DNA of 59,183 nt from contig JAFQZS010000015.1 of assembly GCA_017405765.1 (NCBI GenBank), positions 1 to 59,183 of the forward strand, written 5' to 3'. Each line of letters opens with the position of its first letter. The stretch's first letter is position 1. The notes below the pieces were generated by a model that searched no databases, was not told the DNA's origin, and saw nothing but the letters and a program-made list of their open reading frames with translations. This document shows, piece after piece, positions 51,300 to 59,183 of this stretch. The DNA is from Clostridia bacterium. Its GTDB lineage: Bacteria; Bacillota; Clostridia; Oscillospirales; RGIG577. The position numbers and the translations under genes were made by a program.

Positions 51300-53072
51300 G
51301 TGACAAAGAAACTTTTGGGAATAGTTATCGTATCCTGCATGTTTCTTTCTTTTCTGCCTATGACGGCCGAAGCCGAGGCCGGAACGTGCGGCGGCGATCT
51401 CAGATGGGAACTTGACGACGCGGGAGTTCTGACCATATCCGGCACGGGAGCTATGACCGAGTGGCAGGATTTCGGAGAAGCCGACTGGAACGACGTGAAA
51501 CAGGATATAAGAGCCGTCGTTATCGAGGAAGGCGTAACGACTGTCGGAAACTATGCATTCTGGGACTGCCTGAACATTACATCCGTAAAGCTGCCCCAAA
51601 GCCTTACTTACATCGGCAAAGCCGCGTTCATCTACTGTGAAAAGCTAACTTCCTTGAAAGTCCCGCCAAAGGTCGCAGGCATAGGCAATGCGGCGTTCGT
51701 GCATTGTTCGGCGCTTCAGAGCATACGCATACCGGAAGCGACTATAGAGATCGGCGAGACTCCCTTTTACGGCTGCGAAAACTTATCTGTCATATACTAC
51801 GGCGGCAGCAGTGAGCAGTGGGACGCCGTTATATGGGGCGATGACGACCATTATCCCGAATATACGAGCGTATGTTTTAACTCATATTACACGGGACCGT
51901 CGGGCGAAACGAGCGGCACCTGCGGCGAAGATCTTCTGTGGAAGCTTGACGAGGCCGGAGTTTTGACCATATCCGGCACAGGCGCTATGACCGACTATGA
52001 TGATTGGACGGACGTACCGTGGTTCGATAATACCGAAGCGATATCGCGGGCAGTGATCGGGGATGGCGTGACCTGTATCGGCGATCACGCCTTTATGAAC
52101 TGCTTTAACATGGAACAGATAGACCTTCCGGAAAGCTTGGAACGGATAGGAAAGCGTTCCTTTGAGTTTTGCTCATCAATTAAGGAGATCTCTCTCCCCG
52201 TCGCTCTTAATGCGATAGACCGCGGAGCCTTCGGATACTGTAAAAAGCTTGCGGATATACGCTACGGCGGACGTCAGTCTCATTGGAATGAGATAAGCCT
52301 CGCCGAAGGCGACAACTCGCTTACGGGCGTTACGCTTCATTTCTCCGACGGGAAGACAGCTTCTGTTCCTCTTAACATGGGACCTGTTACAAGCAAAGGC
52401 CGCTGCGGTCCCGACGTATATTGGCAGAAAGACGCTTACGGTACGCTTCGTATTTACGGCAGCGGATCAACATACGACTTTAAGCGCACAGGAACTTATA
52501 ACGTAGGAGACGAAGACTTCTTCCCTACGTGGATATTTAAGGAGCCTGCCGCCGTTTGCGTCGTTATCGATGAAGGCGTGACCCGTATAGGCCGCGCTGC
52601 GTTTACCAACGTCCCCCGGATCATCGAAAATACGTTCTCGGTATATATCGACGATATCTCCGACCTTTACTATATAGGTACTAATGAGCAGTTGAGCGAG
52701 TTTCTTGAAAACAGCTCCGATTCATATAATGAGCTTCTCGATCATGCCGCAGTTCGTGTTATACGCAGTCCGAAGGAGCAGCCAGTATCTGCGGCAGAGA
52801 TCTCAGATGTGCAGGTCTCGGGCAGCACGGTCAGCTGTACGATATCCGTTACCGAAAGCTCAAGCGCATGGTTCGCCGTATATGACGAAAACGGCAGATT
52901 CCTCGGCGCGGAGTCTCGCGCGCTTTTGGCCGATACCGAAAATGAGCTTACATTCACAGCCGACAATGACAGCGCCGCAAATTTCGGTATCTTTGTATTC
53001 TCAGACAGCTTTACGCCTCTTTGCTCCGCTTCCTGCGGGTGTTTGGGCGTCATATCAGGCGGCAGCCGCTGA
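51300..53072 (+). CDS. Secreted BspA-like leucine-rich-repeat protein
   Basis: 590 aa from GTG 51300, behind GGAGGGATCCAAC. A signal peptide ends near AEAEA (residue about 25). The mature part has three repeats of an N-terminal cap: CGGDLRWELDDAGVLTISGT, CGEDLLWKLDEAGVLTISGT and the diverged CGPDVYWQKDAYGTLRIYGS (near residues 28, 204 and 362). The first two are followed by BspA-type LRRs (VGNYAFWDCLNITSVKLP, IGKAAFIYCEKLTSLKVP). The last 110 residues are beta-rich, and no LPXTG or membrane anchor follows. It is probably a secreted or wall-associated adhesin-like protein of unknown ligand. Confidence 0.88.
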   Translation: MTKKLLGIVIVSCMFLSFLPMTAEAEAGTCGGDLRWELDDAGVLTISGTGAMTEWQDFGEADWNDVKQDIRAVVIEEGVTTVGNYAFWDCLNITSVKLPQSLTYIGKAAFIYCEKLTSLKVPPKVAGIGNAAFVHCSALQSIRIPEATIEIGETPFYGCENLSVIYYGGSSEQWDAVIWGDDDHYPEYTSVCFNSYYTGPSGETSGTCGEDLLWKLDEAGVLTISGTGAMTDYDDWTDVPWFDNTEAISRAVIGDGVTCIGDHAFMNCFNMEQIDLPESLERIGKRSFEFCSSIKEISLPVALNAIDRGAFGYCKKLADIRYGGRQSHWNEISLAEGDNSLTGVTLHFSDGKTASVPLNMGPVTSKGRCGPDVYWQKDAYGTLRIYGSGSTYDFKRTGTYNVGDEDFFPTWIFKEPAAVCVVIDEGVTRIGRAAFTNVPRIIENTFSVYIDDISDLYYIGTNEQLSEFLENSSDSYNELLDHAAVRVIRSPKEQPVSAAEISDVQVSGSTVSCTISVTESSSAWFAVYDENGRFLGAESRALLADTENELTFTADNDSAANFGIFVFSDSFTPLCSASCGCLGVISGGSR

Positions 53073-54751: not shown

Positions 54752-55477
54752 TTATTTTAAGACTTTACTTAAAAATTCCTTTGTGCGCTCCTCTTTGGGA
54801 TTCTCAAAAAACTCCTCCGGAGGCGCCTGCTCTATTATTCTGCCTTCGTCCATTATGAGTATCCTCGTGCCCACTTCTCGTGCAAAGCCCATCTCGTGAG
54901 TCACAACGGCCATCGTCATTCCCTCGTTGGCAAGCTCCTTCATTACCTCCAAGACCTCGCCTACCATTTCAGGGTCGAGCGCGCTCGTCGGCTCGTCGAA
55001 AAGCATTATCTGCGGCTTCATCGCAAGCGAACGCACGATGGCGATACGCTGCTTCTGACCGCCCGAAAGCTGGTTCGGATATGCTTTTGCCTTATCCTCG
55101 AGACCTACGCGCCTAAGTAGCTTTATCGCCTGCTCGTCCGCCTCCTCCTTTGACATTATCTTAAGCTTAACGGGAGCAAGCGTAAGATTCTGCATTACCG
55201 TAAGATGCGGAAAAAGGTTAAAATGCTGAAATACCATTCCAAGACGCTCGCGCACCTTGTTTATATCCGTCTTTTTGTCGGTTATATCTACTCCGTCAAT
55301 GATTATCTGGCCGCTCGTAGGTACCTCCAAAAGATTAAGACAGCGAAGGAACGTAGACTTTCCCGAGCCCGACGGGCCTACTATAACTATTTTCTCGCCC
55401 TTATTTATTTCCTCGGAAATATCGTTAAGCACATGGTTCGTGCCGAAATATTTATGAAGATGTCTAACGCTTATCAT
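54752..55477 (-). CDS. Polar amino-acid ABC transporter ATPase
   Basis: 241 aa, GlnQ/HisP type. Walker A is [14 protein letters not shown] (near residues 34-47), the Q-loop is [13 protein letters not shown], the signature is [11 protein letters not shown] (near 135-145), Walker B is [16 protein letters not shown], and the switch His is in VVTHEMGFA. It overlaps the end of the permease gene by 14 bases. Together with the permease and the binding lipoprotein upstream it forms a complete uptake system. Confidence 0.96.
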
Positions 55478-56180
55478 GCTCGTTCAACTTCCTTTCCATT
55501 GCGGCAAACAGCTTTGACAATACCGTCGTTACGCCCAGATAAATGAGCGCGATTATGATAAGCGGGAAAAACGCCTCATAAGTTCGGCTCGTTATTACGC
55601 TTTGCACCTTCGTAAGGTCGGCAAGTCCGATATATCCGACGATAGCGGTCTCTTTTACAAGCACGATAAATTCGCTGGCATACGTTGGCAGTATCATTCT
55701 TATCGCCTGGGGCATGATGATATTTATCATAGTCTGCGACTTTGACAGTCCCAGCGAACGCCCCGCCTCATGCTGTCCCTTATCGACGGAGATAATGCCC
55801 GAACGAATTATTTCGGCAATATACGCCGCGCTGTTGCACGAGAATGCGAATATCGCTACCATCATCTTCGAGGTGTCCGGCGATGTGAAGATAACTAGAT
55901 ATGCGATAAGCAGCTGCACCATCGTAGGCGTTCCGCGTATGAAGTCTATGTATACTATCGAAATAAAGCGAAGTATCTTCACGCTCGATATCTTCATGAG
56001 CGCAAGAATTATTCCCATTATAGTTCCGAAAATTATCGCCGCTATCGTTACGGTCAGCGTGACCTGAAGACCTTCAAGATACAGCTTGTATCGGTCGGCG
56101 TATAAAAACGCCTGATAAAAATTATTTCCGGCAGTCTGAAACCACGCGGACAGGGCTGTAAAAATATCCAATCGTTCCAC
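55464..56180 (-). CDS. Polar amino-acid ABC transporter permease
   Basis: 238 aa. HisMQ-type inner-membrane subunit with five to six helices. The region [19 protein letters not shown] (near residues 34-52), [19 protein letters not shown] (near 77-95) and the EAA loop [20 protein letters not shown] (near 136-155) are family signatures. It follows the binding-protein gene after a gap with a stable hairpin and overlaps the ATPase gene. Confidence 0.95.
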
Positions 56181-56256
56181 TCCTTAAAAAACAGATACGC
56201 GATCTTAAATAAAAACTCGGATCCGCCCCAAAATTCTTATTTAAAATCGGTATCAG

Positions 56257-56290
56257 CAAGTGAGGAGCAGTGAAAAGTGCTCCTCACTTG
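56257..56290 (-). other. Stable hairpin between binding-protein and permease genes
   Basis: A perfect 13-bp stem, CAAGTGAGGAGCA against TGCTCCTCACTTG, with an eight-base loop and no T-run on the minus strand. It lies 16 bases after the binding-protein stop. Such hairpins often protect the 3' end of the abundant binding-protein mRNA; that function is inferred. Confidence 0.75.
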
Positions 56291-56305
56291 ACAACAAAAA
56301 CTAAA

Positions 56306-57151
56306 TTATTTAAGAACGATTATAGCCTGATTAGACTCATAATAGTCGGTCGAGAAGTCTACGTTCTGTCTTCTCTCCTCGGTATTCGTCATGCCTGCGG
56401 CGATAAAGTCGATCTTGCCGCTGGAAAGAGCTGCGATAAGCGAGTCAAAGTTCATGTCTTCTATTCTAAGCGTCTTGCCTGCCTTGTAAGCTACCCACTT
56501 TGCAACTTCTACGTCAAAGCCTGCGATCTCGTTTGCATCGTCTCTGAACTCGAAGGGTTCAAACTCTGCGTTCGTGCCCATGATTATCTCGCCGTCAGCC
56601 TCATACTCCGGTATTTCGGGAAGAACCGCTTCCTCGTCGCCGGTGATGTAGTATGCAAAAATGCTGTCATATGCGCCGTTTTCCTGGATCTCGGCGATAG
56701 TGTCGTTTACTATACCGAGAAGCTCTGCGTTGTCCTTCTTAACTGCGATAGCGTACTTTTCGATCTCGTCGGTCGGCTGGAAGTCGAGTATTACCATATC
56801 GTCATTTCTCTCAACGATCTTCTTAGCCGGCATCTCGTCGATTATAACGCAGTCAACGCGGCCGTTCTTAAGCTCCATAGCGGCGTCGGTAGCCTTCTTG
56901 AAGCGAACTATCTCCGCATCGGCTATATCGGATGCGATAAGGTCGCCGGTGGTGCCTTCCTGAACTGCTATCTTCTTGCCTACGAGGTCAGCTGCGGAAT
57001 TGAGTACCACGCCTGCCTGCTCTTCTACTGTTGCCTCTTCTTCCTGCTGTGCATCGCCCTCAGAGTCAGACTTGCTGCCGCCGGACGAGCATCCTACAAA
57101 GAGCACGCCCATCATAAGTACGGCTAAAATAAGTGCAATTACTTTTTTCAT
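56306..57151 (-). CDS. Amino-acid-binding lipoprotein with circularly permuted lobes
   Basis: 281 aa. Signal and lipobox MKKVIALILAVLMMGVLFVG precede the acylated Cys21. Family-3 solute-binding proteins normally run GxxxFxPFEF (lobe 1), then DLxGKKIGVQxGTTG (lobe 2). Here the order is reversed: residues 52-168 carry NSAADLVGKKIAVQEGTTGD and EIQENGAYDSIFAYY (usual C-terminal half), and residues 187-281 carry GEIIMGTNAEFEPFEF, GFDVEVAKWVAYKAG and GKIDFIAAGMTNTEERRQNV (usual N-terminal half), stopping at YYESNQAIIVLK. An acidic linker (169-186) joins them. It heads the operon with permease and ATPase. A strong promoter lies upstream. Confidence 0.9.
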   Translation of the reverse strand: MKKVIALILAVLMMGVLFVGCSSGGSKSDSEGDAQQEEEATVEEQAGVVLNSAADLVGKKIAVQEGTTGDLIASDIADAEIVRFKKATDAAMELKNGRVDCVIIDEMPAKKIVERNDDMVILDFQPTDEIEKYAIAVKKDNAELLGIVNDTIAEIQENGAYDSIFAYYITGDEEAVLPEIPEYEADGEIIMGTNAEFEPFEFRDDANEIAGFDVEVAKWVAYKAGKTLRIEDMNFDSLIAALSSGKIDFIAAGMTNTEERRQNVDFSTDYYESNQAIIVLK

Positions 57152-57189: not shown

Positions 57190-57218
57190 ATTATACATTT
57201 GTAATGCGCAAAATTCAA
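57190..57218 (-). promoter_or_regulatory. Promoter of the amino-acid ABC operon
   Basis: On the minus strand TTGAAT and a perfect TATAAT are separated by 17 bases, about 40 bases upstream of the binding-protein start. Confidence 0.82.
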
Positions 57219-57595: not shown

Positions 57596-59183
57596 CTATC
57601 TGCGGGTCCTTCTTATGTTTCTTCTGCTTCTTATTATAAATGCAGCGCCTGCGCCGAAGATGAGCGCCGTGCCGAGCACGAGGTATAATGCGGGGCCGAA
57701 GCCGCCCGTCGAGGGAAGCTCAACGCCGGCCTCGTTGGAGATCTTGAGCGTGTATACGCGCGTAGTGGAATTGTACGACCTTCCGTTTCCGCTCGAGGAA
57801 AGGCCGGTGCCTTCATCATATCTCACATCATCCTCAGGCGTACCGTCGCCCGGGAGAACGGTCACCACTACGGGATCCGCCTTCTTGTTGTAGCCGTCCG
57901 GTGCAGTTGTTTCAATGAGGTTGTAAGTGCCTACCGTAAGCTCGAAAACCGTATTGCCCATGCTGTCCGAAAGCATTCCGTCGCTGCCGGAGGTAAGGCC
58001 GGTGTACAGAGCGGGAGTTATGCTTTCTCCGTCCGAGTCAGCCCTGTAAAGATCGAATTTCGCGCCTTCAAGCTTGCTTGTTGCCCAGCTTGTGATATCT
58101 ACTTTTTTGAAGCTTACCTTCTTCTGCTGTATATTGGTGACGGTCATAACATATTTTAATACGCCGTCTTCGCTGAATATGTTCGAAAGCGTTACCGTGT
58201 CCGGATGATCTCCCAGTGTTACGGCTCCCGTAGGAGATACGGTGAAGCGTGTATATGCGCCTATCGGCTTGTAACCGTCGAGCGGCGTCTTTTCACGAAG
58301 CTCGTACGTTCCTGCGGGAAGCGTGTTGTCGATCTTCGGGATCTTGCCGTTCTCATCCGTCGTAAGACTCTCATAGCCCGTCATCGGATCAATGTCGATC
58401 GCCGTTGTGCCGTCTACCGTCACCTGGCGGTGAAGCGCGAACACAACGCCCGGGAGCACATCGCCCGTAGTCTCGTCGGTCTTTATCGCTTCGAACGTAT
58501 AGGGTATGTTCTTTACCGTAAGCGTCGCAAGCGTTGTTCCCTCTGCCTGAGTAAGCGTGTAGTACTGCTCTTCAACGCCACTTACTGAAACTGTGCCGTT
58601 TGTGCTTACGTTGACGGTCATTGCGTCTTCAAGGCCGTGATAGCCGGAGGGCGCAGACGTCTCGGTCAGCGTATAATCCTTATTGTTTGCAAGGAACGCC
58701 GTTGTGATCATGCCGTCCTCGTCGGAGGTGAACGTTCCTATCTCGGTGCCGCTTTGATCCTTTAAGGTAAATACTGCTCCGGGAAGATCATGACCGCTCC
58801 AGTCCTGCTTTTTAAAGATAATGCCGGGCCTGTCGTTCGTTACGGTATCCACGCGTACGTTGGAGCCGCTGCCGACTGTCCCCTCTTCATAGAGAACGGT
58901 ATACGCGAAGTCCGAACGTCCCGTCTCGCCCTTCAGTGTGCCTTTTAAAGTGATCTGTCCGCCGTTTTCTATCGCAGTAACAGTCCCGCAGTTTGTTACA
59001 ACTCCGTTCCCGTCTACCGTGGGATCAGCACCCGAAATCTTAACTTCGCGGATAACGTAATCGCCGACTCCCGTCGTTCCCGATACGGGAAGGTGATCGT
59101 AATACCAGTACATCGTCTGCGGCTTCGCGCTGTAGGATATCTGACGGACGCTGCCTTCAACAAGCTCGCCGCCTGTGGTGAAC
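57596..59183 (-). CDS. LPXTG-anchored surface protein with SpaA/Cna-B-like repeats, 5' end outside the window
   Basis: At least 528 aa; the frame is open to the window edge, so start and signal peptide are not seen. Three prealbumin-like repeats end in ETSAPSGYHG, EKTPLDGYKP and ETTAPDGYNK; their partner Lys motifs are FKKQDWSG, FEAIKTDETTG and FKKVDITSW, as in isopeptide-forming SpaA domains. The sorting signal LPSTGG (57718-57701) is followed by a membrane helix and RSRRNIRRTRR. Sortase would attach it to the wall or polymerise it as a pilin; no sortase gene is in the window. Confidence 0.9.
   Translation of the reverse strand, partial: FTTGGELVEGSVRQISYSAKPQTMYWYYDHLPVSGTTGVGDYVIREVKISGADPTVDGNGVVTNCGTVTAIENGGQITLKGTLKGETGRSDFAYTVLYEEGTVGSGSNVRVDTVTNDRPGIIFKKQDWSGHDLPGAVFTLKDQSGTEIGTFTSDEDGMITTAFLANNKDYTLTETSAPSGYHGLEDAMTVNVSTNGTVSVSGVEEQYYTLTQAEGTTLATLTVKNIPYTFEAIKTDETTGDVLPGVVFALHRQVTVDGTTAIDIDPMTGYESLTTDENGKIPKIDNTLPAGTYELREKTPLDGYKPIGAYTRFTVSPTGAVTLGDHPDTVTLSNIFSEDGVLKYVMTVTNIQQKKVSFKKVDITSWATSKLEGAKFDLYRADSDGESITPALYTGLTSGSDGMLSDSMGNTVFELTVGTYNLIETTAPDGYNKKADPVVVTVLPGDGTPEDDVRYDEGTGLSSSGNGRSYNSTTRVYTLKISNEAGVELPSTGGFGPALYLVLGTALIFGAGAAFIIRSRRNIRRTRR

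Follow-up and report, generated by a model that had tools for sequence, protein, structure and literature searches.

A circularly permuted family-3 amino-acid-binding lipoprotein from a Clostridia bacterium and the recurrence of swapped segment orders among its relatives

The window, by which we mean the whole stretch of 59,183 nucleotides of DNA that was analysed, encodes a family-3 amino-acid-binding protein in which both halves of the domain are present but stand in swapped order. This protein is very probably a working binding lipoprotein of an ABC importer for a polar amino acid, circularly permuted directly after the first of the two strands that connect the lobes. Permuted relatives with intact operons are widespread, and a second permutation, cut at the other hinge, is found among them.

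Segment order of the window protein

We divided the domain into three segments. A comprises the N-terminal part of lobe 1 up to and including hinge strand 1, B is lobe 2, and C consists of hinge strand 2 and the C-terminal part of lobe 1. The canonical chain thus runs A, hinge strand 1, B, hinge strand 2, C (ABC), whereas the window protein runs BCA (Table 1). The Pfam profile SBP_bac_3 (PF00497) matches it with 119 bits against a cut-off of 26.4, in two stretches in swapped order, profile positions 1–92 mapping to residues 189–281, which are the C-terminus. NCBIfam amino-acid-binding models likewise match in two swapped stretches, and a phmmer comparison with the T. maritima arginine-binding protein ArgBP (6svf) aligns residues 180–281 with chain positions 3–104 and residues 54–165 with 114–223, each at ~2e-22. 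In a circular rotation scan, scored with a profile of relatives in canonical order, the native sequence reaches 137.6 bits in two pieces, and with the start moved to residue 174, the optimum, which corresponds to the old N-terminus, the score rises to 275.2 bits in one piece. As a control, E. coli GlnBP scored best at its own N-terminus to within 2 bits. The swapped order is therefore real and far beyond chance, as the original prediction had claimed; no normal-order homologue aligns with the whole gene in one piece. Because lobe 2 comes first, followed by the C-terminal and then the N-terminal part of lobe 1, the protein is a permuted variant rather than a standard member of PF00497. The profile itself is matched by 60 of 60 homologues as well. 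The window protein has the marks of a natural circular permutant: the rotation scan, the junctions and a normal-order paralogue of 294 residues in the same genome (G000:C44) show homologous halves, swapped, with the old termini joined and the new termini internal. In profile-based annotation such proteins go unnoticed, appearing as two partial matches.

Table 1. Features of the permuted binding-protein gene and its operon (positions in the window)
Feature	Positions	Strand	Basis
Gene for the circularly permuted family-3 amino-acid-binding lipoprotein (P0001; 281 aa; order B-C-A)	56306..57151	-	Exact ORF; profile and phmmer matches; rotation scan
Signal peptide and lipobox, residues 1-21, FVGC, Cys21	57089..57151	-	Sequence
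Acidic, poorly ordered tether, residues 22-50, ending in GVVLN	57002..57088	-	pLDDT ~47-72; junction comparison
Segment B, lobe 2, residues 54-120, including QEGTTGD and D105 (aligned with ligand-contact positions)	56792..56992	-	
Segment C, residues 130-169: strand of hinge 2 (YAIAVKK) with the C-terminal part of lobe 1	56645..56764	-	
New linker from former C-terminus to former N-terminus, residues 170-186	56594..56644	-	Ordered in model (pLDDT ~96); purifying selection
Segment A, residues 187-281: formerly the N-terminal half of lobe 1 (GEIIMGTNAEFEPF...R260...), with the hinge-1 strand AIIVLK at its end	56309..56593	-	
Amino-acid ABC permease (BPD_transp_1, HEQRo_perm_3TM)	55464..56180	-	Profile matches; operon context
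ABC ATPase, GlnQ-like	54752..55477	-	Profile matches; operon context
Promoter-like site TTGAAT-17-TATAAT, upstream of the binding-protein gene	57190..57218	-	Consensus match only; site count in the region near chance
Pair of strong hairpins in the spacer that separates the binding-protein gene from the permease gene (56257-56290 and ~56194-56254)	56194..56290	-	Folding; congener comparison

Comparison of the junctions locates the cut. In canonical proteins the A|B junction reads '...QVVIV.EDSxIxSxDDLxGKKIGVQ...', while the permuted proteins end in QVIIV(R)K and, after the lipid cysteine and the tether, start with '...xVxSxDDLxGKKIGVQ', so the cut falls in the loop directly after hinge strand 1. 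It had been proposed that the terminal AIIVLK and the GVVLN near the N-terminus are two copies of the crossover strand left by a duplication. The first part of this proposal stands, AIIVLK being the hinge-1 strand. The second does not: GVVLN matches the canonical 'SPIxSxDDL' loop that follows the strand and is coil in the model, so we rejected it as a duplicated hinge strand. On the other side of the domain, where the old termini are joined, the gap between the C and A profile segments is 15–28 residues with a median of 18.

The gene lies ~2 kb from the contig end, a position where an assembly join or a decaying fragment might produce an apparent swap. We give such an explanation practically no weight. 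The same order is found in the independent assemblies of two congeners (90 and 88% identity), at ~100 loci overall and on the complete Anaerotruncus colihominis chromosome CP102255.1, and the congeners together with this chromosome rule out an assembly artefact. The gene has no stops and sits in an intact operon; its dN/dS against each congener is 0.08–0.11, alike in both halves and in the linker, so that a pseudogene is ruled out as well and the whole gene, linker included, is under purifying selection.

Predicted structure and ligand site

An AlphaFold model of the window protein, computed from 60 sequences of permuted homologues only, has a mean pLDDT of 89 (~96 in the mature domain) and a pTM of 0.77. 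VIA-align superimposes residues 47–171 on ArgBP 125–247 (Z 12.9, 1.7 Å, 39% identity) and residues 185–276 on ArgBP domain 1, positions 6–98 (Z 11.5, 2.3 Å, 46% identity), so the halves match in swapped order, and the model supports the view that the protein keeps the two-lobed type II fold. The best near-full-length sequential structure match is OpuAC (Z 12.4, 206 residues, 4.3 Å, 11% identity). Since the lobes are pseudo-symmetric, the Foldseek ranking of PDB entries, in which HisG and OpuAC stand high, is misleading, and we have used the per-half VIA ranges instead of that list.

The chain runs from the lipid anchor through the tether, B, hinge 2, C and an ordered linker of ~17 residues to A. 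Each lobe would then be one continuous stretch, covalently joined to the other by hinge strand 2 alone, as opposed to two strands in the canonical fold, while hinge strand 1 would become a free C-terminus that the model still places as a strand. Because the cut is in the loop after this strand, both termini, and with them the lipid anchor, are expected at the hinge. The ligand site, contributed by both lobes, would be unchanged by the permutation; an amino acid would be trapped between the lobes and delivered to the adjacent permease by the usual docking. The earlier expectation that the protein is probably functional, with lipobox and transport partners in place, is borne out by FVGC with Cys21 (invariant in a 13-member alignment), the adjoining permease and ATPase, the two-lobed model and the dN/dS.

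Eight residues of GlnBP, which we take to be its ligand contacts (F13, F50, G68, T70, R75, G117, T118 and D157), align with F197, F235, G253, T255, R260, G66, T67 and D105 of the window protein, and these positions are equally conserved in the ABC, BCA and CAB sets. The GlnBP side-chain positions K115 and H156 are occupied by Q64 and I104, which gives no reason to assume specificity for glutamine; a probably polar amino acid is the expected ligand.

The single strand between the lobes raises the question of whether two chains form a domain-swapped dimer in which each lobe 2 closes on the lobe 1 of the partner chain. Each lobe is indeed continuous and joined by one strand in the model, and for a type I binding protein, segment exchange is possible between its permuted halves in isolation (PMC9815098). 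Against this, the model of the monomer has high confidence over the whole mature domain, permease-fused BCA units exist, and a permuted type I protein, TpMglB-2, binds its ligand with the usual conformational change (PMC4990184). We consider the swapped dimer improbable and retain the monomeric, permuted two-lobed protein as the preferred reading.

The window protein shares with ArgBP, E. coli GlnH and ArtJ its homologous halves (39–46% identity to ArgBP), the ligand-contact positions, the lipobox and an operon with permease and ATPase, and differs from them in its swapped halves, in having one inter-lobe strand instead of two and in termini located at the hinge. A close parallel is TpMglB-2 (Tp0684) of Treponema pallidum, described as a 'Type Ic' circularly permuted glucose-binding lipoprotein which retains ligand binding and conformational change and for which an advantage in tethering was proposed (PMC4990184). 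Both are natural circular permutations of a tethered ABC binding protein. However, TpMglB-2 has a type I fold and binds a sugar, and in it three strands of the N-lobe were moved to the C-terminus, and an extra (fourth) hinge crossing is made where the window protein has lost one. The window protein does not belong to Type Ic, which is defined by the type I, cluster B fold and sugar-binding homology, as its Pfam and structure matches are type II and amino-acid-binding. Among type II proteins, OpuAC (2B4L) and ProX (1R9L, 1SW1) were identified as circular permutants by CPSARST, and the same paper lists OpuAC, ProX, molybdate-binding proteins and CysB together as one circular-permutation family (PMC2395249). 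The window model aligns with OpuAC end to end, but the two belong to different families with different ligands and share only ~11% identity, and the OpuAC profile PF04069 has no match in the window protein at E 0.001. OpuAC and ProX thus exemplify a relation between distant families and not recurrent switching inside one.

Spread, recurrence and origin of the permuted orders

Homologues with the swapped order exist in independent assemblies. A scan of genome contigs returned 80 loci, nearly all in swapped order, from Oscillospiraceae, Lachnospiraceae (Blautia, Roseburia hominis, Acetitomaculum, Kineothrix) and Anaerotruncus colihominis, whose BCA gene is the chromosomal one mentioned above. 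Also among these loci are many from Treponema (saccharophilum, bryantii, socranskii) and one from a Verrucomicrobiota bin. The BCA homologues number ~100 in all. Permease and ATPase genes follow on the same strand in 93 BCA loci, and in four loci (L095, L123, L148, L149) the BCA domain is fused to the permease, joined through the hinge-1 strand, which puts the membrane tether at the hinge. A simple pattern did not recognise the lipobox cysteine in 18 of 101 permuted homologues, Gram-positives included (for example L067, L084, L128 and L130), where start-site errors are possible. In a sample of 295 genomes of the window's order, full-length BCA proteins occur in ~26, CAB in 21 and canonical ones in 125; these counts were taken from tables and are lower bounds, obtained at differing thresholds. 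A strong full-length BCA match was found in 5 of 398 genomes in a scan of the phylum, and by comparison with the ~26 of 295 the distribution is patchy rather than universal. Loci with permuted gene, permease and ATPase are common in rumen and oral Treponema (L053–L092), and the nesting of their sequences among those of Clostridia suggests that the permuted operon was transferred between phyla.

At least 20 genomes of this bacterial order hold a second permutation, C-A-B, which is cut at hinge 2 (L017, L020, L024, L030, L031, L153, L158, L163–L179). These proteins start with '...KVIDIxLTxEEYAFGV', end in lobe 2 and keep both the ligand positions and intact operons. A BCA and a CAB gene can stand side by side in one operon, as recorded for genome G263 and for locus L178 (585–1418 and 1498–2361, minus strand).

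How often the orders changed was analysed with trees built on re-ordered A+B+C segments of 60 rows. The three orders are intermixed, with at least 12 changes and with 4–5 per label forced by well-supported branches, the count being uncertain because branches are short and some rows long. In AU tests with all columns, a single clade is rejected for BCA (p = 0.0026), for CAB (9e-5) and for both together (1e-5); segment A alone gives 0.024 for BCA and 0.0003 for CAB, and B+C alone 2e-5 for BCA. A single origin of each permutation is thus rejected, with the caveat of weak branches. The alternative, one ancient event per type with a tree mixed artefactually by long branches or by recombination between the halves, draws on the weakness of many inner branches, the length of some rows and the only moderate rejection of one BCA clade by segment A. 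We nevertheless judge it unlikely. Besides the rejections just given, the CAB protein L153 is ~60–73% identical to canonical proteins in every segment, and the BCA proteins L154 and L156 lie inside a CAB clade (support 100/99), independent segments placing the key rows alike. These two proteins carry a C-terminal tail after the hinge strand (DDTTFDDCATAADVEEIL), which the BCA family of the window protein lacks, so their breakpoint is a different one. Since the orders are mixed in the trees and single origins are rejected, permutation has recurred: it is neither local nor single in family-3 proteins but widespread and recurrent.

The most likely origin, which we regard as plausible, is an in-frame tandem duplication or fusion after which the outer pieces were lost, and in family 3 this would have happened more than once and at both hinges. 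Tandem fusions are known in both registers, for example an ABCABCABC-permease (L117) and a BCABCA-permease (L105), up to 68% identical when re-ordered, and are plausibly the kind of intermediate that duplication and end-loss need; an intermediate on the direct line of descent was not found. Tandem SBDs, several of them fused to permeases, were observed in the BCA register at L105, L015, L157, L185, L032 and L036 and in the ABC register at L117, L145 and L150. With two registers, the domain boundary in such an array is ambiguous and can be read as BCA-BCA or as BC-ABC-A. The tandem SBDs of GlnPQ (6H30) similarly show a BCA register across their domain junction, and comparable SBD-permease fusions, both canonical and permuted, are found among the homologues; the GlnPQ domains themselves are, however, canonical and in tandem, while the window protein consists of one permuted domain on its own.

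Whether the new connectivity is of any benefit is a separate matter. The permutation could be adaptive: a lipid anchor or permease fusion site at the hinge instead of on lobe 1 might improve the opening or docking of a tethered binding protein. It is recurrent and always found at the inter-lobe loops, the permease fusions tether the permuted domain by the hinge strand, and the tethering advantage was proposed for TpMglB-2 in similar organisms (PMC4990184). On the other hand, nearly all sampled canonical homologues are tethered lipoproteins too, for which reason the tethering idea is not clearly favoured; permuted and canonical kinds coexist in one genome, and the pattern is explained equally well by neutral fixation following tandem duplication, with cuts tolerated only in the inter-lobe loops. 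We therefore see adaptation as possible but doubtful. Similarly tentative is a broader proposal, in which permutation in the family-3 proteins of Clostridia and Treponema would be recurrent and interchangeable, ABC, BCA and CAB being all the orders that inter-lobe cuts allow, with at least several switches made via tandem SBDs and with a hinge tether or permease fusion altering opening or docking.

Permuted binding proteins thus have precedents in distant families (TpMglB-2; OpuAC and ProX), and the window protein belongs to a widespread, recurrently permuted set. The non-subscription literature searched contains no report of a permuted family-3 or other amino-acid-binding protein, nor of one family having been permuted repeatedly and at both of its hinges. 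Natural circular permutants tend to be isolated cases of great age, recognised by comparing distant folds, whereas in family 3 one domain occurs in three connectivities among close relatives (up to ~66–68% identical when re-ordered), in intact operons and in ordinary gut and oral bacteria. Their coexistence makes the origin of permutation, the need for two hinge strands in closure and the role of the anchor position directly askable. The family is a natural laboratory for protein rewiring, and its permuted domains are ready-made biosensor scaffolds with termini at the hinge.

The operon and its surroundings

Binding protein, permease and ATPase together span 54752–57151, in the layout seen at homologous loci. 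The spacer between the first two genes (56181–56305, minus strand) folds with ~-49 kcal/mol in the window and in both congeners, which also share both hairpins; the first hairpin has a z of -6.5, and the hairpin region is single copy in the genome. No Rfam family was found in the operon region. The hairpins probably determine how much binding protein is made relative to permease, through transcript processing or through attenuation that favours the binding protein. Upstream of the operon (57596–59182, minus strand) lies a large repeat protein, truncated where the contig ends, in which an LPSTG sorting signal and Cna-B-like repeats are seen by eye, a putative cell-wall adhesin or pilin-like protein from its appearance. 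At 51300–53072 on the plus strand a secreted protein of 590 residues is encoded, with what by eye are BspA-like leucine-rich repeats.
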